From a virus, in the IMG/VR virus record IMGVR_UViG_3300013005_000033, positions 1-64,000 of that record: a stretch of 64,000 bases of DNA; one strand, given 5' to 3'. Below the pieces are notes generated by a model, which was given only the letters and a program-made list of their open reading frames with translations, was not told where the DNA came from and made no database searches. Positions within the stretch are counted from its first letter, which is position 1. The number at the start of each line of letters is the position of its first letter. The position numbers were made by a program, and so were the translations under genes. Shown here piece after piece: positions 3,703-28,026 of the stretch.

Positions 3703-3971
3703 ACTCTCCTGAAAATGTGTTTGTTGTTTTCTTCGGAAAGTTTTTGCTCGGTCCGAAGCACTTCCCGTATTTTGTCGTGCGGCATATTAAAAGCAGAATT
3801 GGCCTGCTGTTTAAACAAGGCAGAAATGATCTGCGCTGTTGAGTCTTGATCTAATTCGCACCCGTCAAGACAATAAGCCTTCTGATTCTCTACATCCAAG
3901 AACGCTATCATTTCTCCGGATTCTAAAGACGCCCTGACGGCCATGAGCATATTGACCAATGTTTTCACCAA
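3699..3971 (-). CDS. hypothetical protein (90 aa)
   Basis: Unrecognised soluble protein with a helical N-terminus, a short beta segment (MIAFLDVENQKAYCLDGC) and a charged helical C-terminus. It starts at GTG 3971 with AAAGGATTG just upstream, which decides the start. It is the first gene of a leftward run, facing away from the rightward gene at 4007. Confidence 0.65.
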   Translation of the reverse strand: MVKTLVNMLMAVRASLESGEMIAFLDVENQKAYCLDGCELDQDSTAQIISALFKQQANSAFNMPHDKIREVLRTEQKLSEENNKHIFRRV

Positions 3972-4006
3972 TCCTTTGTTTTGAAGCCTAAGCGATATAT
4001 AAGAGT

Positions 4007-4441
4007 ATGAACTTCAGACAATTCTTAGAGCACAACCCGCTTAAGATATATTTCCCCTCAAAAGGAAACACAGTCGGAATGCACAACGACGGCAATAGGG
4101 ACGGGTCTGTTGGGTCTTTTTTGCCCTCGACATGGACAGGGAGCGAAGACTTGGGAGTGTATGGGTATGGGATGCCAGGGACCGACATACAGCTGCCCAC
4201 CGTTTCGGTAGAATCTGCGATTCGCTCAATAGAAGGCTACGATCCGAAGCCTGGGGGGAAGTGCAAAGATCCGATATGGATTACAATGATGAATGGAACT
4301 AGGTTCAGCGTGCCTCGTAAATATTTCAGAGCAAACTACAAAGGAATCAAGGAAGGAGATAAGCTAAAAATCGTTTTCCGCAGAAATCCAGGCTATACCG
4401 GCGAAGAAGCATCAAGAATAATACAAGTATCTAAAATTTGA
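4007..4441 (+). CDS. hypothetical protein with capsid-targeting-like N-terminus (144 aa)
   Basis: The protein begins MNFRQFLEHNP, the same short M-x-F-x-(E/Q)-(F/W/Y)-L pattern as several rightward or isolated small genes here. The middle is Gly/Pro-rich; the end (ISTMMNGTRFSVP-like beta segments, then EGDKLKIVFRRNPGY) looks like a small beta barrel. It has no catalytic motif. It stands alone between leftward genes, as T4-type internal-protein genes often do. Packaging is inference from the N-terminus. Confidence 0.65.
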   Translation: MNFRQFLEHNPLKIYFPSKGNTVGMHNDGNRDGSVGSFLPSTWTGSEDLGVYGYGMPGTDIQLPTVSVESAIRSIEGYDPKPGGKCKDPIWITMMNGTRFSVPRKYFRANYKGIKEGDKLKIVFRRNPGYTGEEASRIIQVSKI

Positions 4442-15369: not shown

Positions 15370-16437
15370 TCATTTATTCCTTATAATTCTGAATACTCTC
15401 TTGGTCTCTTTGTACTCAAAAAGATCCCAAGCCTTTTTTTTGATTTCCTCGTCCTCATCCTCATCTATGGACGCCCCAGCCAAATCATATCGGTACGCCC
15501 CCTTGCCCAACTTTCCGCCTCCCTTGCCAAACTTGCCCGCAAGATCCTGGCAGAGCGCAGGAACCGAAACGGACGAGGCTTTGGTTCGAACGCTTCCCTC
15601 CATCTTATTTCCATCAACAAGAGCAAAAACTACCGCCGTGTTGACATCCTCCCAAGTAACCATCTCATCGGCCATGTCTGCGATCATATCTCTGTGCTTG
15701 GCTGGTATGATGCCCATTCCAACCACACCCACACTGTCTTCCACCGTGGCCTCAGAGCATGCCAAGGCCTTGGATTCTGTCCAGAACTTTGGGCGCTCAA
15801 AATTTATTATCTGCTTGAGGAGCAGAGGATCCCTGTATGGGAACATTTTGCTCCAAGCGTTGAATTCAAATTCGCTACAGTCATCAGACATAAGAAAGTC
15901 AGTGTCCGTTGTGATTCCAACCATCATTCCGGTCGTGACAAGCGAGTCGTTTTCATCAAACTCGAGGCCAAAATACTCAATGATTGAGTAAATCGTCGCA
16001 CAAGCACTCCCGGCTTTAAAGTTCATATAAAGACCGTCAAAATTCCTCGGCATTTCCTTGTGATGGTCTATAACAACATCAAATTTAAAATTCGGATCGG
16101 GAACCCCCGCATTCTCAGGGATGCAATCAACAGTGACCCTCAAGCAATATTGCGAGTCTGAGTAGTCGCCCAAGAGTTTAAGATCGGGCTCCAAAAGGTT
16201 AACCATGGATCTGTTCTGGGGGTGGGATATGGTTCCCGTATAAAATAAATCCGATGATATGCCGAACCTTCCCAGCAGCCACTTTAGACCCATCATGGAG
16301 CCTATCGCATCAGGATCAGGATATGGATGGGTGAATATGGCAACCTTTCCAGAGCAACCACGAATCAATTCCCTGAGCTTATCCATGCTGGCTACATCGG
16401 GCCTTTCGCAAGCCAAATCTACCATTTTTCTTTCCAT
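15370..16437 (-). CDS. DHH-family phosphoesterase (NrnA/RecJ-like)
   Basis: The metal-binding DHH motifs are clear: THPYPDPDAIGSM (DPD at residues 41-43), TVDCIPEN and VIDHHKE. The C-terminal DHHA1-like region has GGGKLGKGAYR where the usual substrate-binding motif is GGGHxxAAG, so the His is replaced. NrnA-type enzymes degrade short oligoribonucleotides or 3',5'-pAp. In a phage this could recycle nucleotides from RNA decay or destroy signalling oligonucleotides. The missing His may change the substrate. Confidence 0.8.
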   Translation of the reverse strand: MERKMVDLACERPDVASMDKLRELIRGCSGKVAIFTHPYPDPDAIGSMMGLKWLLGRFGISSDLFYTGTISHPQNRSMVNLLEPDLKLLGDYSDSQYCLRVTVDCIPENAGVPDPNFKFDVVIDHHKEMPRNFDGLYMNFKAGSACATIYSIIEYFGLEFDENDSLVTTGMMVGITTDTDFLMSDDCSEFEFNAWSKMFPYRDPLLLKQIINFERPKFWTESKALACSEATVEDSVGVVGMGIIPAKHRDMIADMADEMVTWEDVNTAVVFALVDGNKMEGSVRTKASSVSVPALCQDLAGKFGKGGGKLGKGAYRYDLAGASIDEDEDEEIKKKAWDLFEYKETKRVFRIIRNK

Positions 16438-17003: not shown

Positions 17004-17975
17004 TCAGTTCCCAAAACCGACTATGCCCAAATTTTCCTTTACAGAAGGAATCAAGGACTTGACGACATCCACGACTATGCTGTTACCCAAATAAAATATT
17101 TTTTGCTCATCTCCTATCTCTAAAAAATCAAAATCATTGGGGAAGCCGAACATCTTGAGGCACTCTCCGACATTGAGCCTTCTGATGTTGTTCCCGACCT
17201 TGTAGAGACCAGTCTTTGCCCCAGGACCGCCCGAAGAAGCACAAATTGTCACGCCGCATGATCCAACGTCATAGATCCTCTCGCCTTGCCTTCCGCCCTT
17301 CTTCTTTTCGTTAGAGAATATGTTGAAAAGGATTCTAGGCTTGAACGGACGGGCCTTGGAGTTCTTGGCCACAAGATAGTGCTTGCTTCCGTCCCAACAC
17401 GAATTATCAGATCTGTCCAAGATTGAAGACACGGCACGATGTTTAGATGTCTTGTCCGGGAAGACAAAGTCGCCGGACTTTGTGGCGACCATGAAAATTC
17501 TTTGGCGACATTGGGGCGAGCCGTAATGCGCAGAATCCATCACCTTAGAAAAGAACCCATAACCTCTGTCTTCAAATGACTTCTTAATGGTTGCGTAGGT
17601 TCTTCCGTCGTCATGCGTCTTCAAGTTCTTGACATTCTCAAGAATTGCCATGGCGGGCTTTTTCGCGTCCACAATCCTCAAAATGTCATAGAATAGATTG
17701 CCCCTGTCGTCTCCGAAACCGAGCTTGGATCCAGCAATGCTGAAGGGCTGACAAGGGAAGCCCGCACAAAGAATTTCAAAATCAGGCAAGGATGAGGCAT
17801 CAACGCTTTTGATGTCGCCATGGGGATCAAGGCCGTAGTTGGCCTTGTATATTTGCCTGACCTTGTCGTTTATATCGCAAGCGAAAACGCATTTGAACTC
17901 GGGATGTTCTTTAAAGGCTTGGTGAAACGCACCCAGTCCGCAAAAAAGATCCACATACCTTGTTTGTTCCATCAA
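17004..17975 (-). CDS. DNA (cytosine-5) methyltransferase
   Basis: A complete C5-methyltransferase of 323 residues: motif I YVDLFCGLGAF, motif IV GFPCQPFS with catalytic Cys75, motif VI LENVKNL, motif VIII QCRQRIF and motif X YLGNSIVVDVV. Target specificity cannot be read. No restriction enzyme is adjacent, so it is an orphan phage methylase, likely shielding viral DNA from host restriction. Its start overlaps the end of the preceding gene by 4 bp. Confidence 0.95.
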   Translation of the reverse strand: MMEQTRYVDLFCGLGAFHQAFKEHPEFKCVFACDINDKVRQIYKANYGLDPHGDIKSVDASSLPDFEILCAGFPCQPFSIAGSKLGFGDDRGNLFYDILRIVDAKKPAMAILENVKNLKTHDDGRTYATIKKSFEDRGYGFFSKVMDSAHYGSPQCRQRIFMVATKSGDFVFPDKTSKHRAVSSILDRSDNSCWDGSKHYLVAKNSKARPFKPRILFNIFSNEKKKGGRQGERIYDVGSCGVTICASSGGPGAKTGLYKVGNNIRRLNVGECLKMFGFPNDFDFLEIGDEQKIFYLGNSIVVDVVKSLIPSVKENLGIVGFGN

Positions 17976-19112: not shown

Positions 19113-21683
19113 TCAAATAGGAGACTCCATTATTTGCAACCTGGGGTCGTTTTTCTTGTCGGCAGGCACGACCTTGTATCGTATCGCCTTGGGAGGAGAC
19201 TCAAAAGTATAGGATTTAAATCCTGAGCCGGGGCGCGTCAGCCTCATTCTCATAAAATGGCCACGGTTCTGCTCCTCGTTCCAATACTCTAGCTCTTCCT
19301 TGAATCTCGTGTAGTCCTCAGACCAGAATGTGACAACCTCCACATTCCAATCCTCATCCTCCACAAGTACAAAGTGGTACTTGTTGCCCTTCTTTGAGCT
19401 CTTTTCCTGAGGCCTTTTGACGATCATCACCTCCACGCCGGCATTCACTATGTCGTCGTTCTCCTTGAATATTCCAAAAGAATGGCCGCCTATGTAGTCA
19501 GGGCTCTTCTGTATGGGGTGCTCCCAACTGAACCCGTAGTGGCGCCTTTCCAACTCAAATATATTGGGCCATTTATCTAGGGGGTATCTGTTCTGAGGGT
19601 TCCAGTTCTCCAAAGATATTGAATTTGACTTGCTGAAGTTGGCCTTGTGTTCAAAATCAAGAACGGACTTCGCATACTTCTTAACAATGACAAAAACATC
19701 AGAGGTGTCAAATTCGGGCGATATTGCAGTCTTCATAGGCGACGCGTCGCCGCCCTCAAAGACCCTCATCAGAAAATCATGGTCAAGATAGGAGTCAGAT
19801 CCCTCCCTCAGCATGGATCGTATGGACTGTTTGAGCTCATCACGGCGCTTCATCTGCCTTTTTTCTTTGTCGATGTTGCCCTTGGACCATTTTTTATAAT
19901 CCTCATAAAACTCAAGCAGAACATTGGGAGGCGCGTCTTTGAAAACGCCAAGGCAAATAAGCGGCTCTACTATTCTCTTGTCCGTGCCGAACCTGTCCAA
20001 AAAATCGGGGAAGCCGGAGAAAGGTTGCAACGATACTATCCTCTCAGCGACCTCCCTGCCTACGCCCTTAATGTTAGAGAAGCCGACATAGATCTCGTCG
20101 CCGACAATCTCGTAGTTGACCTTGCTCTTGTTGAGGTCGCATCGGTTAATCTTTATTCCGCTGCGTTCCGCTTCCCTCTTGTACATCTTCACCTTGTCCT
20201 CGTCTCCTTCAAGGCCAAGCGTGGAGCAGAAGAACTCAAGAGGATAGTGAGCCTTTAAATAAAGAAGCCTAGAGGATGTAAATGTATAGGCCACTGAATG
20301 GCTTCGATTAAATCCGTACGAAGCGAAGGATTCTATCAAGTTGAAAAGAAAGTTCATGTTCCTTTCGTCATCGGACTCTATCGGCCAACCAGTCTTCTTG
20401 CTGCCGTTCTCAAGGAACATCTGCTTGTACTTGATGAATTCGGCCGTCTTCTTTTTGCTGATTGCCTTTCTGATTTTCTCACAGTGGATGAGGGGAATGT
20501 CGCCAAGGATGTTCAATATCTTCATGACCTGCTCTTGATAAACAAGAACACCGTAGGTTCTCTCGAGAACATCCCTTATGCAACTTGGAACTTGATCCTC
20601 CCAGTCCTCCTTTCCCCTCTTTCTCTCCACATACCTTTCGTGCATCTTCATGCCAAGCGGGCCGGGTCTAAAAAGAGCAGAATAGGCGACGAGATCCTCA
20701 AATCTCTCAACTCCACCAGCTTTTATAAGCTTTCTCATTCCCTCGCCGTCGAACTGGAATATGCCTCTGGTCTCAGCCCTATTTGCAAGCTCCAAGGATT
20801 TTGGATCATTCAGATACGAAGTATCGCTCCAGTCAGACCCGCCAGGGACAGCAGAAATGCTCGCGATATCGGGATGTCTGGTCTTTACAAGATTGCAGCA
20901 GTGGGCGATTCTTAAAAGATCCTTCACCGCCAACACGTCAAACTTGATGAGTCCGACAGGTTGAAGGTCTTGGTCGTGCAAGCCTTCAGTCCACCCCGAG
21001 ACGGGGTTGCCATCGGTATCAATCATGACCGGCACAAGGTCAGATATGTTTATGTTAGAGACCACAGTGCCGCCGGCGTGCTTGCCGCGACCCCTGTTCC
21101 TGTCTATAAGGCGGCGGGCTGCGTCTGCTATCTCGGGATTGCGCTCACAGTAGGAAGAAAGGTCGGGCGTGGCTTCCAAGGCCTTCTCCCAAGTAAGAGG
21201 GCGACCTTCTTCGTCTTTATCTTGAAGATTTTTGGTTATGGTCTGAATTTCTTGGTAGTCGGCACCGTGAACCCTCGCCATGTCCAAAAGGGCAGACTTG
21301 ATTCCAAAGGTTCCGTAATTACCTATATTAACAACCTTATCCCGGCCAAACCTCCTAGGACACCAGTCCTTTCTCAAGTATTCTTGAACAACCGGGAGGT
21401 AGTCCACGTCTATGTCAGGAAATTCGCCTTGGACATAAGCAGGCTCGGAAGCGATGTCAAATTCATCGGTCAGCCCCAAGAGGTACGGAACAAGCAGATT
21501 ATTCTCATTTTTCTTGAATTTGGCTCGTTTTTCTACAAGTTCCAAAAAATACTCATGTTCCGCTTGATTGTCTATTTCTTTTATTTCAGATTTGAGCCGA
21601 TCCTTGAAATCTTTAGGATCAAGGCCTCTTTTGGAAATGCCGTCTATGCAAAGCTTGAGCAGTTTCTCTCTAGAATCTTCCAT
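19113..21683 (-). CDS. dnaE: DNA polymerase III alpha, C-terminal half (catalytic)
   Basis: This 856-residue protein begins with a linker-like helix (EKLLKLCIDGISKRG) and goes straight into the catalytic palm, FPDIDVDY, carrying two active-site Asp. It continues with NIGNYGTFGIKSALLDMARV, RGKHAGGTVVS, IKFDVLAVKDLLRI, YQEQVMKI, SFASYGFNRSHSVAYT and a C-terminal OB-like domain. It lacks the PHP domain and the GPGRGS motif, both found in the separate gene at 23559-24863. About 80 N-terminal residues parallel the end of that other half, suggesting two complementary relics of a duplicated gene. Confidence 0.92.
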   Translation of the reverse strand: MEDSREKLLKLCIDGISKRGLDPKDFKDRLKSEIKEIDNQAEHEYFLELVEKRAKFKKNENNLLVPYLLGLTDEFDIASEPAYVQGEFPDIDVDYLPVVQEYLRKDWCPRRFGRDKVVNIGNYGTFGIKSALLDMARVHGADYQEIQTITKNLQDKDEEGRPLTWEKALEATPDLSSYCERNPEIADAARRLIDRNRGRGKHAGGTVVSNINISDLVPVMIDTDGNPVSGWTEGLHDQDLQPVGLIKFDVLAVKDLLRIAHCCNLVKTRHPDIASISAVPGGSDWSDTSYLNDPKSLELANRAETRGIFQFDGEGMRKLIKAGGVERFEDLVAYSALFRPGPLGMKMHERYVERKRGKEDWEDQVPSCIRDVLERTYGVLVYQEQVMKILNILGDIPLIHCEKIRKAISKKKTAEFIKYKQMFLENGSKKTGWPIESDDERNMNFLFNLIESFASYGFNRSHSVAYTFTSSRLLYLKAHYPLEFFCSTLGLEGDEDKVKMYKREAERSGIKINRCDLNKSKVNYEIVGDEIYVGFSNIKGVGREVAERIVSLQPFSGFPDFLDRFGTDKRIVEPLICLGVFKDAPPNVLLEFYEDYKKWSKGNIDKEKRQMKRRDELKQSIRSMLREGSDSYLDHDFLMRVFEGGDASPMKTAISPEFDTSDVFVIVKKYAKSVLDFEHKANFSKSNSISLENWNPQNRYPLDKWPNIFELERRHYGFSWEHPIQKSPDYIGGHSFGIFKENDDIVNAGVEVMIVKRPQEKSSKKGNKYHFVLVEDEDWNVEVVTFWSEDYTRFKEELEYWNEEQNRGHFMRMRLTRPGSGFKSYTFESPPKAIRYKVVPADKKNDPRLQIMESPI

Positions 21684-21752
21684 GCCTTGATTCTACACGA
21701 ATGATCTCGCCGGTGCAAGCTCGAAGGCTTTAAAAAAGCTGCGGGGGCTATC

Positions 21753-21760
21753 TATATAAC
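21753..21760 (+). promoter_or_regulatory. candidate late-type promoter (TATATAAC)
   Basis: TATATAAC lies 26 bp before ATG 21786 of the acidic-repeat protein, with GGAG as ribosome site between them. The position fits a -10; no good -35 is seen. Confidence 0.4.
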
Positions 21761-21785
21761 TAGCGATTCAAAAATGGAGCTAAAA

Positions 21786-23195
21786 ATGGCAAAATTACCA
21801 TCTTTCCTAGAGTACTTGAACGACAAGGGCGCCGTGGTGGAGAAACCAGAAACGGAGACTGTGTCGGACTACAACGGTCCGGACGAAAAGAGCCCTCCGA
21901 ACAGCAAGGTTCCGTACAAGACACCGGTGGCGAACAAGGCCGCGGAAAAGGGAGAGAGCGGACTGGCCGAGCTCGGCGACAAGGCTCTGAAGTACGAGCC
22001 GAAAGTAGACGCAAAGACCGAGGTCAAGAAAGAGGTAATGAAGGAATATGTCGACGAAAACGGAAAGGTCGGCAAGCCAAAGGTAGACATAAACGCCAAG
22101 TATACAGGCAAGGTTCCGGAGTGCCCGCCGGGCAAGGGATCAAAGCCGTACATAAGTCCCGCCATCAAAACAGGAAAGTCCGAAAAAGGGTTGGGGGAGC
22201 TTGGACACAAAGAATTTGAATACAATCCGGACACCAAGGCTGCGTCCAAGGTTACAAAAACAGAAAATTTCTTAAACAAAACAAAGGGAATGTCGCTGGC
22301 TGAGTTCACAAAGTACATGATGGACGAGTGCGGCTGCGGACAAGTAGACGACGATACGCTGCCTTTCATAACAGCATACACCACCGGAAAATTTCAACCT
22401 CACCCCCCGGAAGTGATAAGATATGTTTCGGTTCTTGCCGACAAGAATCAAGGCATACTCAACAATCTTGTTTCAACCATGATAAGCATGGGGTATTTAA
22501 ACAAACTTCTAAAAGCCATATTTGAGCACCCAGAGGCCTACGAAGAGTTGACAAATCTGCTCAACGACGATGAAGAGGGGCCGTCCAGGTGCGACTCTCT
22601 CGTTGGATCAATAAATAATGCTTATTCAAAATTCGTCTCGGATCAAGAGGGAATGTATGAGTCCGTGAGTTCTCCGGTAGGATTCGATATGGATGACATG
22701 GACACAGAAGAATCGGACTCCACGGAAGATGAAGAAAGTGAGATTGACGATGAGCAAGAGGATTCCGAGGATTCCGACTTCGAAGACGAGGAAGATTCCG
22801 ACTTCGAAGACGAGGAAGATTCCGACTTCGAAGACGAAGGCGAGGAAGATTCCGACTTCGAAGACGAAGGCGAGGAAGATTCCGACTTCGAAGACGAAGG
22901 CGAGGAAGAAATTGCTCCAAAAAGCGAAAAGAAACTAAAAAAGAAGTTTGCTCACCATCACATCTTGGATGCCATGAGGAAGCATGGACACATGATGAGT
23001 GCGATGCAGTCAGAGTCGGTAGACAGAGAGGCCCAACTCAAGAGAATGCTGAGCCAGGTTAAGCGAGACCCCAAAATGGACAAATTCTTCTACCTGATGC
23101 CAGGGAAGTGCCCTCTGTGCGGGAAAAGAAAGAAGTCGGGAGATCCTTGCAATAATCCAGAATGCAAGGAAAGCTACGACAGAATCGAGAAGTAA
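21786..23195 (+). CDS. acidic-repeat protein with C-terminal zinc finger, possibly capsid-packaged
   Basis: Start chosen at the second ATG (21786) because GGAG lies seven bases upstream. The protein (469 residues) begins MAKLPSFLEYLNDKG, another variant of the targeting-like leader. It then has Lys/Pro-rich repeats (SGLAELGDKA, KGLGELGHKE), a helical domain (LAEFTKYMMDECGCGQVDDD...), a long acidic DSDFEDEE repeat tract, and a zinc finger CPLCGKRK...CNNPEC. It stands alone, rightward, between the two polymerase halves and ends in a strong terminator. A core, scaffold or injected-protein role is inference. Confidence 0.7.
   Translation: MAKLPSFLEYLNDKGAVVEKPETETVSDYNGPDEKSPPNSKVPYKTPVANKAAEKGESGLAELGDKALKYEPKVDAKTEVKKEVMKEYVDENGKVGKPKVDINAKYTGKVPECPPGKGSKPYISPAIKTGKSEKGLGELGHKEFEYNPDTKAASKVTKTENFLNKTKGMSLAEFTKYMMDECGCGQVDDDTLPFITAYTTGKFQPHPPEVIRYVSVLADKNQGILNNLVSTMISMGYLNKLLKAIFEHPEAYEELTNLLNDDEEGPSRCDSLVGSINNAYSKFVSDQEGMYESVSSPVGFDMDDMDTEESDSTEDEESEIDDEQEDSEDSDFEDEEDSDFEDEEDSDFEDEGEEDSDFEDEGEEDSDFEDEGEEEIAPKSEKKLKKKFAHHHILDAMRKHGHMMSAMQSESVDREAQLKRMLSQVKRDPKMDKFFYLMPGKCPLCGKRKKSGDPCNNPECKESYDRIEK
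22770..22907. repeat. in-frame 24-bp and 30-bp acidic repeats
   Basis: Two 24-bp units encoding DSDFEDEE are followed by three 30-bp units encoding DSDFEDEGEE. The copies are identical at DNA level, indicating recent expansion, and all stay in frame. Confidence 0.92.
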
Positions 23196-23231
23196 AACAA
23201 GTGCCCGCAATGACTTGCGGGCACTTGTTTT
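23194..23231. terminator. strong bidirectional rho-independent terminator
   Basis: A perfect 17-bp stem with a TGAC loop, flanked by A4 and T4-5 so that it works both ways. It lies between the rightward acidic-repeat gene and the leftward gene ending at 23235. Confidence 0.95.
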
Positions 23232-23234
23232 TAA

Positions 23235-23516
23235 TCAAGGCGTGAGAAGGCCAGAATTGGGCAAAATGATTGCGCCTATTTGATTCAAATAGGAATTCTT
23301 GATTTCGTCCTCGGGCTCTGCTTCAAAAAGAACATTTTGGGCAGAAATTTCATAATCTTCGCTCTTGGCGAAGGGACAGAGCGGCATAGAGGCCAAGCCT
23401 TCTCTAGAAAAAATAAGCCTGTGGGGCTTCTTGAGAACGACCACCTCTCCTTTTCTCTCTATCTCGCATATCACATCGTCTCCAGTAACCAATCTAATAA
23501 GTTTGATCATGTGCAT
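23235..23516 (-). CDS. conserved small phage protein, Sm-like pattern (93 aa)
   Basis: The opening IKLIRLVTGDDVICEIERKG, then VVVLKKPHRLIF, PLCPFAKSEDYEISAQNVLF and EPEDEIKNSYLNQIG, resembles a small beta-barrel (Sm/Hfq-like) protein often seen in T4-type phages, whose role is unsettled. It sits between the two DNA polymerase halves in the same direction, so it may share their transcript. Fold assignment is by pattern only. Confidence 0.65.
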   Translation of the reverse strand: MHMIKLIRLVTGDDVICEIERKGEVVVLKKPHRLIFSREGLASMPLCPFAKSEDYEISAQNVLFEAEPEDEIKNSYLNQIGAIILPNSGLLTP

Positions 23517-23558
23517 TCATTCTCCTTGATCTAATACAGTTCTTGGGAATCGTTTTCG

Positions 23559-24946
23559 CTAATCCAATATTTCTGGGTCAAAAGAAAAACGAAGCTTCAT
23601 CTGCTTGCCACCTCGGGCTGGACTTAAAAACCTCGAGAAAAGAAGATCGTGCTCTATGGGGTCAACATCCGTTATGCCCAGACAATAACAAACCAAAGCC
23701 CCCACGGCAGAACCTCGGCCAGGACCCACCGCTTCAGATCCGTCACCATATCCAAGAAGTTGCCTAGAAACCCTCCTGGCCTCATCGGTCATCATCTTTT
23801 GAATGATGAAGTATGATGCGAAGCCCTTGCTACATATGAGGTCATACTCCTCCTTGATCCTACCCATATATGTCGCGTTACGGGGAAGCCGCCTCTTCTT
23901 GAAGCCAATTGAAATATATTCAAGGAGTTTCTGTTCGGCATCCTCTATGTAGGGCAACTTGACGGAGCGGTCCAGCTTAACACCCTTGGCCCGCTCGGCA
24001 ACCTTGACCGTGTTCCGCTTGGCCTCCTCAAAGAACTCAAGCGGTATCGTTTCGCTGTAGTCCGAGGCCCATTTTTCGTTGAGTTCCTCCTCGCTCTTCA
24101 TCCAGAGGTTCGTGTCTTGGAGTTCAAACAAGTCGGAAGTGTCCTCCCTGTCCATCTTCTCCTGTATCTCCTGGAGGGTCTTGCGAGTCTGCACCATGAG
24201 CATGAGACGCTGCATCTTGCTATCCTCGCGCTGGGCGTAGTGACAGTCCTGCGTCAATATTACTGGGAGCCCGTACCTCTCGTGGGCCCTGATTATGAAC
24301 TGGTTGTAGGGCTTCTGCTTGCTGAAGTCCAGAAGCATGATCTCAAGGAAGAAGTTGTCCTTGCCGAACATGCCGATGTACTTCTCAACCATAGTAAAGC
24401 CCTCGTCGTCGCCTCCTCGCTCAAACGCCTGGCCGATCTCGGAGTTATAGCAGCAAGAGGTAAATATAATCCCCTCCTTGTGCTTCAAGAGCATCTCGTG
24501 GTTGACCCTTGGCTTGTAGTAGAAGCCTCGCGTCCACGCCAATGACGAGAGATTCACTAGGTTGCTATAGCCCTTCTGAGAGGTAGCGATGGCTAGCAGA
24601 TGGTAACTCTTACCGAGCTTCTTCTTTTCCTCGGGGCTCATATCCTCCGTGCGTTCCGAGGTCTTCTCGCCCGGATTCAGTTCGGGCTGCATCGGAGAGA
24701 CATATAATTCGCAACCAAATATAGGATCCCTGCCGTACTCCTCGCAGGCTTGTATCTGCCTCGGCACGGCACCCATGGAGCCATGGTCGGTCACACAGAG
24801 AAAATTTTGATTTATTTCCTTGGCTCGGCTCGCCATTTCATGGCAGGTTCCGAAACCGTCCAAGACACTGAAATCCGTGACGGCTAGTGCAGGTGAAGAT
24901 GTTCAAATCCGACAATCTTCACCTGCGAGCCCCCTTTCTCTATCAT
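23559..24946 (-). CDS. dnaE: DNA polymerase III alpha, N-terminal half (PHP domain), interrupted near its start
   Basis: A good start (AAAGGA, then ATG 24946) gives 20 codons ending ...GFEHLHLH and then TAG (24884-24886). The natural continuation, TDFSVLDGFGT, follows in another frame after an extra 8 bases (24879-24886). From TTG 24863 the frame is open and encodes the PHP domain and the start of the palm, up to AVGPGRGSAVGALV and DLLFSRFLSP, then ends just before the catalytic Asp motif. The catalytic half is at 19113-21683. If the insertion is real and not bypassed, the first PHP histidines are lost. Confidence 0.85.
24889..24926 (-). other. inverted repeat beside the 8-nt insertion in dnaE
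   Basis: An 11-bp perfect stem (GCAGGTGAAGA with its complement, 16-base loop) ends two bases before the TAG that interrupts the polymerase N-half. One arm encodes the LHLH histidines. It has no T run, so it is not a terminator. It may have caused the insertion by template switching, or act on translation. Confidence 0.7.
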
Positions 24947-24996: not shown

Positions 24997-26316
24997 CTAC
25001 TTAGTCCAGAGCACGGGACATCTATTTTTTTCCTCTTCAGTCATATCCTTGTTATTCCTAGCAAGATTTTCTAGGGCATTTTCAACCCTCACTGTATTTT
25101 CGCCGTTTTCAGAAAATGACTTTTCGTGACTAGCATGAAATCCCTTTCTGACGAAGGAGGCTTTTTTTCTTTTTTCTGGTGTGGCTTCTTGCAAGTCAAA
25201 ACCTATCAATCGAGCCAGATGAGTTATCTTTGATATGTTGCTCATGGCACAATTAGTATTGTTTTGTTTGCCATCCTTATCGTCATAGAAAAAAGCACTT
25301 CTGCCCTTATTGTTTTTCAAGAATTTTTCAGTGAAGTCTTTTATTCTTGATACTGGGACTCCCAAGTTGGACAAGTGAATCTTAGCTATCAGCCACCATC
25401 TGAAGTTAACCTCAGCAGGAATGATTCTTTTTCCAACGACCTCTTCAAATATCTGATTGTAAAATTGAGTTGCGTTTTCAACCATGTTCTCGAATTGATC
25501 AAGTTTTTTGTCAAACTCTTCATGATCAAATTCTTTCAGAATTTTCGTCAAAGAAGACTCCAAAGCAAGAGAATTTTTATCCTTGTATATGGGCTCTGCC
25601 ACTCTGTAACTCTTTGTGGTTTTATCCTTAGAAATGAACTTCAGAAAAATTGACAAATTGTCCCTTTTTTCTTTATGTTCCCTTATTCTCTTTTGGGCTT
25701 TGCTTTTTTTACAACCAACATTCAACACCGCCTTTTTAACTATTTCATGAATTCTGTTGAGCCTATGCTGCCAGAAGGAGCTAAACTCAGACAATTCTTG
25801 GCAAAATACGGTCTTGCCCAATTCAAAAGGAGTTGTAATCGTACCTTTATTGGCTCCGACAAAGCCACTTATTGCTTGCTCTATATTTTCATATTCTACC
25901 CGTTGAACTTCTAGTTTAATTTCTTGCATCATATCCTTGAAGTCTTTTGACTTTCCTTGATCAAACATTTTCTTAAACTTGTTTTGGAATCTCAAAGATT
26001 CACATATTTGCTTTATTGAAAAAAAAGTTCTCTGCAATCCGTCATTGACATATATGACATCTTCTCCTTTATAGTTATAAACTTGTATGGTGCCTGTCAT
26101 CTGGCCGCCACCCTCATTATAAAATTTGATTAGGTCTGCGTAATAGTCTTTTATTGCCTTTTCATCCCAGGCTCGCTCCCTCTGATGTTCTGGGGCTCTC
26201 CATATGTTGGGTCTGGAGGGGTACTTCTTTCCCTCCTCACTATAAATTTCGCCCGGATGAATATTTGTAAAGCATTCCCATAAAGAAAACATTGTATTCG
26301 AAATGACTCTGGTCAT
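24997..26316 (-). CDS. DUF262/GmrSD-like protein with HNH-like C-terminus
   Basis: The N-terminal third follows the DUF262 (ParB/Srx-like) pattern: APEHQRERAWDEKAIKDYY and VIYVNDGLQRTFFSIKQI, matching the usual Q-R-x-x-W and DGQQR. Near the end GFHASHEKSFSENGENT...NALENLARNNKDM resembles a DUF1524/HNH nuclease site (H-x-x-H-x...N...N), though diverged. GmrSD enzymes cut modified phage DNA; in a phage such a protein could act against competitors or host DNA. The middle (NLSIFLKFISKDK and following) is helical. The function is inferred. Confidence 0.6.
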   Translation of the reverse strand: MTRVISNTMFSLWECFTNIHPGEIYSEEGKKYPSRPNIWRAPEHQRERAWDEKAIKDYYADLIKFYNEGGGQMTGTIQVYNYKGEDVIYVNDGLQRTFFSIKQICESLRFQNKFKKMFDQGKSKDFKDMMQEIKLEVQRVEYENIEQAISGFVGANKGTITTPFELGKTVFCQELSEFSSFWQHRLNRIHEIVKKAVLNVGCKKSKAQKRIREHKEKRDNLSIFLKFISKDKTTKSYRVAEPIYKDKNSLALESSLTKILKEFDHEEFDKKLDQFENMVENATQFYNQIFEEVVGKRIIPAEVNFRWWLIAKIHLSNLGVPVSRIKDFTEKFLKNNKGRSAFFYDDKDGKQNNTNCAMSNISKITHLARLIGFDLQEATPEKRKKASFVRKGFHASHEKSFSENGENTVRVENALENLARNNKDMTEEEKNRCPVLWTK

Positions 26317-26760: not shown

Positions 26761-28026
26761 CTAGAACAACTCTTTGATGACCTTGCCGGAGTTGGCAATC
26801 TTCATCGGGCGGCCGTTCTTGGCGGTGAATGTAGTCTCAAGAGATATCCCAAGAGACTTCAAGACGCTGGCCATGACGTCTTGGGACGAGTAGGGTTCGG
26901 TAACCACTTCCTTGCCGTCGGAGCTTGTTTCGCCGACCACCACGCCGCGCTTGAAGCCGGCGCCACCGACCACCACGCTCCAGCTCCTCGCCCAGTGATC
27001 CCGGCCGCCGTTGCCGTTGATATTGGGCGTACGGCCGAATTCTCCCATCCAGATGATGGCCGTGTCGTCCAGCATTCCCCGATCTGAAAGATCCGACACC
27101 AGGGCGGACATGGCTTTGTCCAATTCTGGGAGTTTTTGGTCGGACAGGGTGGGAAATATATCGGCATGGTTGTCCCAGCCGCCGAGATCAACCTCCACGA
27201 AGGGAACACCGGCCTCCACGAGCCTACGGGCGAGCAGACAGCCCCGGCCGAAGCCGGTGGCTCCATACCTATCTTGAACCTCCTTGGGCTCCTTGGCAAC
27301 CTTAAAGGCCTCCATTTGCTCGCTTGTCATGAGCCTCACGGTCTTGTCAATCACCTTCTTGTGATCCTCGGCGAAGCCGCCGCGCCTCTCGCCTATAAAC
27401 TTGTCTTCTATAGTCCCTAGCATCTTCAGTCGCTGTTCTATACGGGACGGATCAATCCCCATGTCAAGGTCTCTAACCTGGCCGTTGGAATTGACAACGA
27501 ACGGCGCCCAAGTCATACCCAGGAAGCCGGGGCCGACGCTCCCGCCGCCCACGGAAACAAAAGGCGGAATCTCAAGATTTGAGATCTGCTCGGAAAGTTC
27601 GTGCGAGATTACGGATCCATACCCCGGGTGTTCTATGTTGGGATTCGGCACATATCCCGTGTGCATGTAATAACGCCCTCGCATATGGTCGGCCTCGCGC
27701 GTACTCATTGACCGCACTATTGACATATGGTGCATCTGCTTGGACATCAGCGGAAGGTGCTCACAAATGGCTATTCCTTCTGCGCTGGTGGATATCTGCT
27801 TGAATGGGCCACCGGTCGCAGATCCGGGCTTCAAATCCCAAAGATCCATTGTGCTAGGTCCGCCGCCCATCCATAACAAAATTGCAGCCTTGTGCCGCTT
27901 CTTGATGTCAGCTGCATTTGCAAGGAGCGAATTGGTGAATGCCATTGCGGGCGCCGCCATCGCAGTCGCTCCCGCAAGGTGACTCATAAAATGGCGTCGG
28001 CTCATTCCGTCTGGTGTTTGAAGCAT
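26761..28026 (-). CDS. DUF1501 protein with Tat-type signal
   Basis: A 421-residue DUF1501 protein: twin-arginine start (MSRRHFMSHLAGATAMAAPA), then AAILLWMGGGPSTMDLWDLK, GYVPNPNIEHPGYGS, EVDLGGWDNHADIFPTL and IWMGEFGRTPNINGNGGRDHW. The family is abundant in Planctomycetes and relatives, usually exported and related to the sulfatase/alkaline-phosphatase fold; substrates are mostly unknown. The region is visibly richer in G+C than the genes around it, pointing to transfer from a host. AAGGAGA precedes the ATG. Phage carriage is unusual. Confidence 0.92.
   Translation of the reverse strand: MLQTPDGMSRRHFMSHLAGATAMAAPAMAFTNSLLANAADIKKRHKAAILLWMGGGPSTMDLWDLKPGSATGGPFKQISTSAEGIAICEHLPLMSKQMHHMSIVRSMSTREADHMRGRYYMHTGYVPNPNIEHPGYGSVISHELSEQISNLEIPPFVSVGGGSVGPGFLGMTWAPFVVNSNGQVRDLDMGIDPSRIEQRLKMLGTIEDKFIGERRGGFAEDHKKVIDKTVRLMTSEQMEAFKVAKEPKEVQDRYGATGFGRGCLLARRLVEAGVPFVEVDLGGWDNHADIFPTLSDQKLPELDKAMSALVSDLSDRGMLDDTAIIWMGEFGRTPNINGNGGRDHWARSWSVVVGGAGFKRGVVVGETSSDGKEVVTEPYSSQDVMASVLKSLGISLETTFTAKNGRPMKIANSGKVIKELF

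Follow-up and report, generated by a model that had tools for sequence, protein, structure and literature searches.

A phage DNA polymerase III alpha encoded in two genes, with a short hairpin-associated coding gap in the PHP half that points to translational bypassing

The window analysed here (64,000 nucleotides (nt), positions 1 to 64,000 of the 78,116-base IMG/VR virus record IMGVR_UViG_3300013005_000033) encodes DNA polymerase III alpha (DnaE) as two genes, a catalytic half (19113–21683, 856 amino acids) and a half with the PHP domain and the GPGRGS motif (PHP half, 23559–24922); window features are on the minus strand unless indicated otherwise. An earlier note, made from the sequence of this DNA, had described the left-lying gene as having the catalytic Asp motif, fingers and OB domain without PHP or GPGRGS, and the right-lying gene as having PHP and GPGRGS and stopping short of the catalytic Asp motif; Pfam searches and alignment to unsplit DnaE confirmed both descriptions. 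The catalytic half, which comprises vestigial linker helices, the catalytic Asp motif (PDIDVD, 21402–21419), fingers, HhH and an OB fold, matched positions 100–260 of the Pfam model DNA_pol3_alpha as well as DNA_pol3_finger and HHH_6. The PHP half matched PHP (PF02811, 24336–24878) and positions 10–98 of DNA_pol3_alpha (PF07733, 23613–23906), contains GPGRGS at 23709–23726 and ends with MKLRFSFDPEILD, ahead of the catalytic Asp motif. GPGRGS and the catalytic Asp motif sit in separate genes, the DnaE domain set (PHP, palm NTPase, finger, HhH and OB) is complete only across both of them according to Pfam, and no single chain carries all catalytic motifs. The 78,116-base record holds no additional DnaE match. 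The cyanobacterial split DnaE intein likewise distributes dnaE over two genes, at another site and with intein parts there; a split intein was rejected for the phage genes, as neither half holds an intein domain (Pfam) and the cyanobacterial site (FASYGFN, 20307–20327) is uninterrupted in the translation (FASYGFNRSHS), as the earlier note had pointed out.

The same split was found in related phages. The two-gene layout of the window recurs in about 25 related contigs. Of the 30 contigs searched, the longest of 527 kb, the majority contain exactly two complementary DnaE pieces, which share a strand and are separated by a few kb up to about 15 kb; none has a third or full-length DnaE in addition to the two pieces, and every split relative compared has intact catalytic Asp and finger motifs. 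L076 and L025, the only unsplit relatives, grouped together on a tree of 59 PHP halves that was rooted on them; given this and the two-piece layout of most contigs, the split is old, maintained and clade-wide rather than specific to the phage of the window. When aligned to the unsplit 1176-residue DnaE of L025, the 595-kb metagenomic phage LR756511, the PHP half covered residues 1–430 (54% identity) and the catalytic half residues 329–1166 (38% identity), so that residues 329–430, the approximately 100 residues preceding the catalytic Asp, are represented in both halves. In line with the helical region that the earlier note had seen in both genes, the two linker copies were in register by profile comparison (hhalign, E 1.7e-4, HH probability 50%), the homology of the vestigial N-terminus being read from this sequence register, and we regard it as moderate, that is, beyond chance and not overwhelming. 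In the copy that forms residues 1–86 of the catalytic half (21426–21683) the helices are kept and NENNL, invariant in nine of nine split relatives compared, replaces GPGRGS. Duplication of dnaE followed by loss of a complementary part from each copy fits the linker overlap, the existence of unsplit DnaE in L025 and L076 and the conserved change to NENNL; it is the best available model of the split, and this proposal of the earlier note is partly supported overall. The two polypeptides would then assemble into one DNA polymerase III alpha, with the modified linker retained in the catalytic half probably holding them together. When the catalytic half was modelled by itself with AlphaFold, the model reached a mean predicted local distance difference test (pLDDT) score of 82 with 16 sequences (42 and unusable with three) and matched DnaE structures over residues 85–850 (VIA Z 21–25, up to 25.5) and OB-fold proteins over residues 744–855. 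Its palm catalytic strands, residues 83–96 (catalytic Asp motif), 196–204 and 232–246, had pLDDT values below 50, as expected if an incomplete palm is completed by the other chain; the model is consistent with association of the halves into an active enzyme and is no proof of assembly.

The split also takes other forms in related contigs. In a second phage clade (L014, 9821–10682; L016, L018 and L021), the break in dnaE falls elsewhere, behind about residue 268 of the catalytic half, and a gene for a DnaQ-like exonuclease (RNase_T) separates the pieces; in L203 and L204 (G004, G003) and L205 (G019) the catalytic half is split again near residues 347–363, the pieces overlapping at the break. 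Inteins seem to lie at or near FASYGFN in L053, L214 and L215 (matches broken at residue 461), and an intein is inserted at PIFAC|ELY of the PHP half in L035 (2900–4000) and L072 (2570–4201), the former with a LAGLIDADG domain (Pfam).

The PHP half is itself interrupted: the earlier note was right about its position and content, but it is not a single open frame. From GTG 24922, the likely true start, which lies upstream of the 434-residue frame given by the open reading frame finder and is preceded by a Shine-Dalgarno-like AAAGGGGG (24930–24937), a leader frame encodes the first 12 residues (VKIVGFEHLHLH, 24887–24922) and ends with the codon CAC, directly followed by TAG (24886–24884). The PHP frame resumes 8 nt later at ACG 24878 with TDFSVLDG and continues to 23559. 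The leader contains HLHLH, the metal-site motif of the PHP domain, and the 8-nt gap (TAGCCGTC, 24879–24886), with the stop codon first, is presumed to be untranslated. A hairpin of 12 base pairs (bp) joins the region of the start codon (5' arm GCAGGUGAAGAU, 24915–24926, with the GTG inside) to the codons for HLHLH (3' arm AUCUUCACCUGC, 24889–24900, ending 2 nt before the stop), with a minimum free energy (MFE) of −28.9 and a z-score of −4.4, matched by none of 200 dinucleotide shuffles. Elsewhere in the 78-kb record, only weak candidates for further start-hairpin-stop elements were found.

Two scans of viral contigs yielded about 117 non-redundant N-termini, 40 of them interrupted and 76 intact. 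The interruptions fall in one of three places: after HLHLH (His take-off, n = 20, the class of the window) or HVHS (Ser, n = 11), after SD/TD (n = 6) or after SVL (Leu, n = 3). A fourth gap position, HLHL|H, was found as an independent case in L220, which belongs to an NCBI genome bin and where CTT-TGA-CTA is accompanied by a hairpin; L035 is an additional His-class case with a bypass-type leader. The gap measures 5–11 nt in three-quarters of the roughly 40 interrupted relatives and 40–47 nt in the SD/TD class, in which a hairpin lies inside the gap. A stop codon (TAG, TAA or TGA) comes first in each of the 25 distinct His- and Ser-class gaps and in all three SVL gaps. Since gap lengths of 5, 6, 7, 8, 9, 10 and 11 nt represent every frame, no single frameshift or stop suppression accounts for them, and both programmed frameshifting and stop suppression were rejected; the window contains no tRNA gene. 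Take-off and landing codons match in the Ser class (TCY/TCN, 11 of 11) and the Leu class (CTY/CTN, three of three). On the tree of 59 PHP halves, the state switches between gap and no gap at least 13 times. No gap was found in a cultured phage, the best-ranked 60 matches of a first tblastn search and 60 sampled across a second, later search being nearly all continuous through the HxH region, nor in cellular or host-binned DnaE (14 genome contigs, all intact). In one relative, L075 (about 3950–4010), a single base is missing after HRHSDF and an entire HNH gene lies upstream, but there is no hairpin; this may be an error or a gap-less immune allele.

In interrupted genes, bases around the start codon are paired with the codons immediately 5' of the take-off codon, and at every take-off site the hairpin arm stops 0–3 bases from that codon's end. 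Mean hairpin MFE in the interrupted classes was −21.5 (class of the window), −20.3, −25.9 and −17.7 kcal/mol (SVL), with z-scores against synonymous recoding of −4.3, −4.9, −4.9 and −2.2 (SVL), respectively, compared with a mean of −4.9 kcal/mol and a z-score of +0.54 in the 76 intact genes. Within the class of the window, the 12 bp were paired in 98.8% of cases with 15 double-change cells, a result reached by none of 500 shuffles; an independent, different hairpin is formed by ATGGACGTG and CACGTCCAT in the second clade, with weaker covariation than in the class of the window. The I-V-G-F-E codons, located mostly in the loop, showed a ratio of nonsynonymous to synonymous polymorphism (pN/pS) of 0.09 among interrupted relatives; the leader is thus under purifying selection, and the peptide that it encodes ahead of the stop matters. 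A hairpin at the start region also occurs in two intact genes, L036 (z −4.4) and L046 (z −2.9), which may be about to gain a gap or may have lost one. This recurrent hairpin-associated short coding gap is a larger discovery than the split.

Interrupted genes are associated with homing endonucleases and group I introns. Of the 32 members with an interruption, an intron or a frameshift, 16 have an HNH endonuclease gene of a single family (phrog_559), or what is left of its C-terminal part, ending immediately 5' of the leader; this count is not independent of the family profile, which was built from eight non-intact members. The search of intact genes was a fair one and found the endonuclease next to none of 28, or next to one of 29 when L072 is counted (p 4e-6 to 4e-5, the latter with L072, related phages being treated as independent). 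The intact L058 and the interrupted L090 (gap TGACCAT, 7 nt) are 95% identical upstream and 90% identical downstream, and L090 has about 850 extra nt with an HNH gene and a new leader in addition to the 7-nt gap. Group I introns (RF00028) were found in L048–L050 and L078 (L048, 3767–3992; L078, 3716–3978), at FSL|LDG and TD|FS of the PHP motif of dnaE, 2–5 codons from the short-gap site. In L115, of the second clade, a different endonuclease-like gene, with an HNH-like motif recognised by eye and weak helix-turn-helix matches as its only Pfam hits, ends 10 nt before PLHVHS of the leader. Another HNH-like gene, seen by eye only, lies between replication genes in the interrupted L109 of the same clade (−1675 to −1142 from the leader).

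We consider it probable, at roughly 75%, that this phage family has a two-chain DnaE derived by duplication and complementary loss, whose PHP half is made by programmed translational bypassing coupled to immunity against homing endonucleases. Ribosomes would start at GTG 24922, read VKIVGFEHLHLH and reach the stop codon while peptidyl-tRNA-His occupies the P site; the region of the start codon, by then outside the ribosome, would pair with the HLHLH codons behind the P site, and zippering of the hairpin would pull the mRNA so that the ribosome moves over the 8 nt and resumes at TDFSVLDG. The gap would destroy the target of an HNH homing endonuclease, or of a homing intron, that attacks the invariant metal-site sequence, which is most likely the reason for its persistence, and hairpin and gap together would form an immunity-and-repair cassette like that of T4 MobA and gene 60. 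For the family as a whole, we lean towards the view that bypass elements of 5–11 nt, driven by a start-codon hairpin, have been repeatedly gained and lost at the PHP metal-site codons of two-chain phage DnaE, where they would mark immunity to homing endonucleases and introns.

Several observations weigh against this interpretation. T4 gene 60 requires about 46 upstream codons and a nascent-peptide signal, whereas only 12–15 codons precede the take-off site in the phage genes. In the His class, the resume codon is mostly preceded by an NAY triplet (by GTC in the window), which gives no clean match to the take-off codon, and the landing register in the window is therefore uncertain; five of the six long gaps (about 40 nt) lack an immediate stop codon and one begins with a stop. 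Taken alone, the hairpin of the window is modest against synonymous recoding (z −2.3). There is no recognisable HNH gene beside the gap of the window, where the gene directly upstream of the leader (24997–26316) is a possible nuclease with a weak GmrSD_N (DUF262) match below the cut-off (E 0.033), and the intact L072 carries a truncated HNH gene. With regard to the split, the homology of the vestigial linker is moderate (HH probability 50%), and the structural alignment spans residues 85–850, beyond the vestigial N-terminus.

The alternative that survives best is re-initiation, in which translation of the leader ends at TAG and a PHP half of reduced length is started further on, giving a protein without HLHLH. 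The window has a TTG five codons past the resume point, and 17 of the 40 interrupted genes have an in-frame ATG, GTG or TTG within 10 codons, but the median distance to the first start of any kind is 27 codons and the first ATG is typically 33 codons downstream, beyond the second PHP motif. Purifying selection on HLHLH, the conservation of TDFSVLDG right after the gap and a hairpin position that follows the take-off site argue further against re-initiation, which we consider unlikely. Slightly less probable still is removal of the gap at the RNA level by some splicing or processing, perhaps from a group I intron remnant, with ordinary translation thereafter. The true group I introns lie 2–5 codons from gap positions, and their 5' ends (TAACTAAC, TAACTGAG) resemble some gaps (TAGCTAAC); however, 5–11 nt are too small for an intron core, the window has no Rfam match, and a leading stop codon and a hairpin are needed by bypassing, not by splicing. 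It is very improbable that both halves are relics and that the phage is replicated by a different polymerase: the 78-kb record may belong to a larger genome, but the full-length polymerase that would have exposed them as relics, according to the earlier note, was absent from the record and from the 30 related contigs, most of which hold exactly two complementary pieces with their motifs intact. Decay of the PHP half into a pseudogene, or a frameshift or assembly error, would account for the broken frame and has a parallel in the plain 1-nt deletion without hairpin of L075, yet it is hardly credible given about 40 non-redundant cases whose samples are unrelated, a further case in an NCBI genome bin, a gene body with 91% protein identity at 76% DNA identity to L006, and a structured and covarying hairpin.

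Bypassing as the preferred reading has its closest relative in T4, where a topoisomerase is split by an HNH homing endonuclease (gene 39/mobA/gene 60) and the ribosome bypasses 50 nt (PMC2988022, PMC5009743). In gene 60, the stop follows the take-off codon, a 5' stem-loop that forms behind the ribosome pulls the mRNA, and the gap may derive from a degenerate intron that protects against the adjacent endonuclease (PMC5009743, PMC11194080, PMC2988022). The window has the corresponding features, namely a gap inside conserved coding sequence, TAG directly after CAC and a stem-loop 5' of the take-off site, and the family shares with T4 an essential replication protein in two genes and, in many members, an adjacent HNH gene. 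Unlike gene 60, the phage genes encode a DNA polymerase, have gaps of 5–11 nt in the main classes and a hairpin that takes in the start codon and directly adjoins the take-off codon, and show several sites with repeated gains and losses in one gene family. The byp elements of Magnusiomyces mitochondria are similarly many, short and untranslated, with imperfect take-off and landing matches (PMC5009743), but are mitochondrial and described as independent of mRNA context, whereas the phage gaps are led by a stop and come with a covarying hairpin. The exact form of synthetic "stop-hops", in which matched codons surround a stop (PMC5009743), occurs in L004 (CTC-TAA-CTT) and in L220; in contrast to these constructs, the phage cases are natural, lie in polymerase genes and have a hairpin. 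Two polypeptides that reassemble into one enzyme are known from NrdA of Aeh1 and gp43A/43B of phages 25 and 44RR, and the split enzymes of Aeh1 and phage 25 are linked to homing endonucleases (PMC2988022); unlike these, the enzyme of the window is a C-family DnaE whose break lies in the palm and is not a simple one, as the halves carry overlapping copies of the linker. We rate the short gap as a variant of programmed bypassing and the split as a variant of split phage enzymes rather than as a categorically new system. In the literature searched, no paper was found that describes bypassing in a phage polymerase gene or a split dnaE in a phage. Efficient bypassing is known largely from T4 gene 60 and yeast mitochondria, and shorter counterparts have long been expected by reviewers (PMC5009743). 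Dozens of natural short cases with intact, intron-bearing and endonuclease-bearing sisters make the needs of the ribosome for hopping, and the reason why phages keep the gaps, directly testable, and a two-chain replicative polymerase with overlapping linkers is a natural complementation system.

Two genes lie between the DnaE halves of the window, one for a 93-residue protein (phrog_527, 23235–23516), with homologues in the same place in L003, L004 and L009, and one on the plus strand for a 473-residue acidic protein (21774–23195), which is also found between the halves in L003, L004, L009 and L010. Near the polymerase genes are genes coding for a DHH/DHHA1 phosphoesterase (15370–16437) and a C5 cytosine methyltransferase (17004–17975), and a DUF1501 protein (26761–28026, E 4e-103) with a possible twin-arginine translocation (TAT) signal is unusual in a phage and possibly host-derived. 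Phage-encoded transfer-messenger RNA (tmRNA) genes were present near dnaE in five of 12 related contigs scanned (L010, 10677–11066; L038, L048, L050 and L068).

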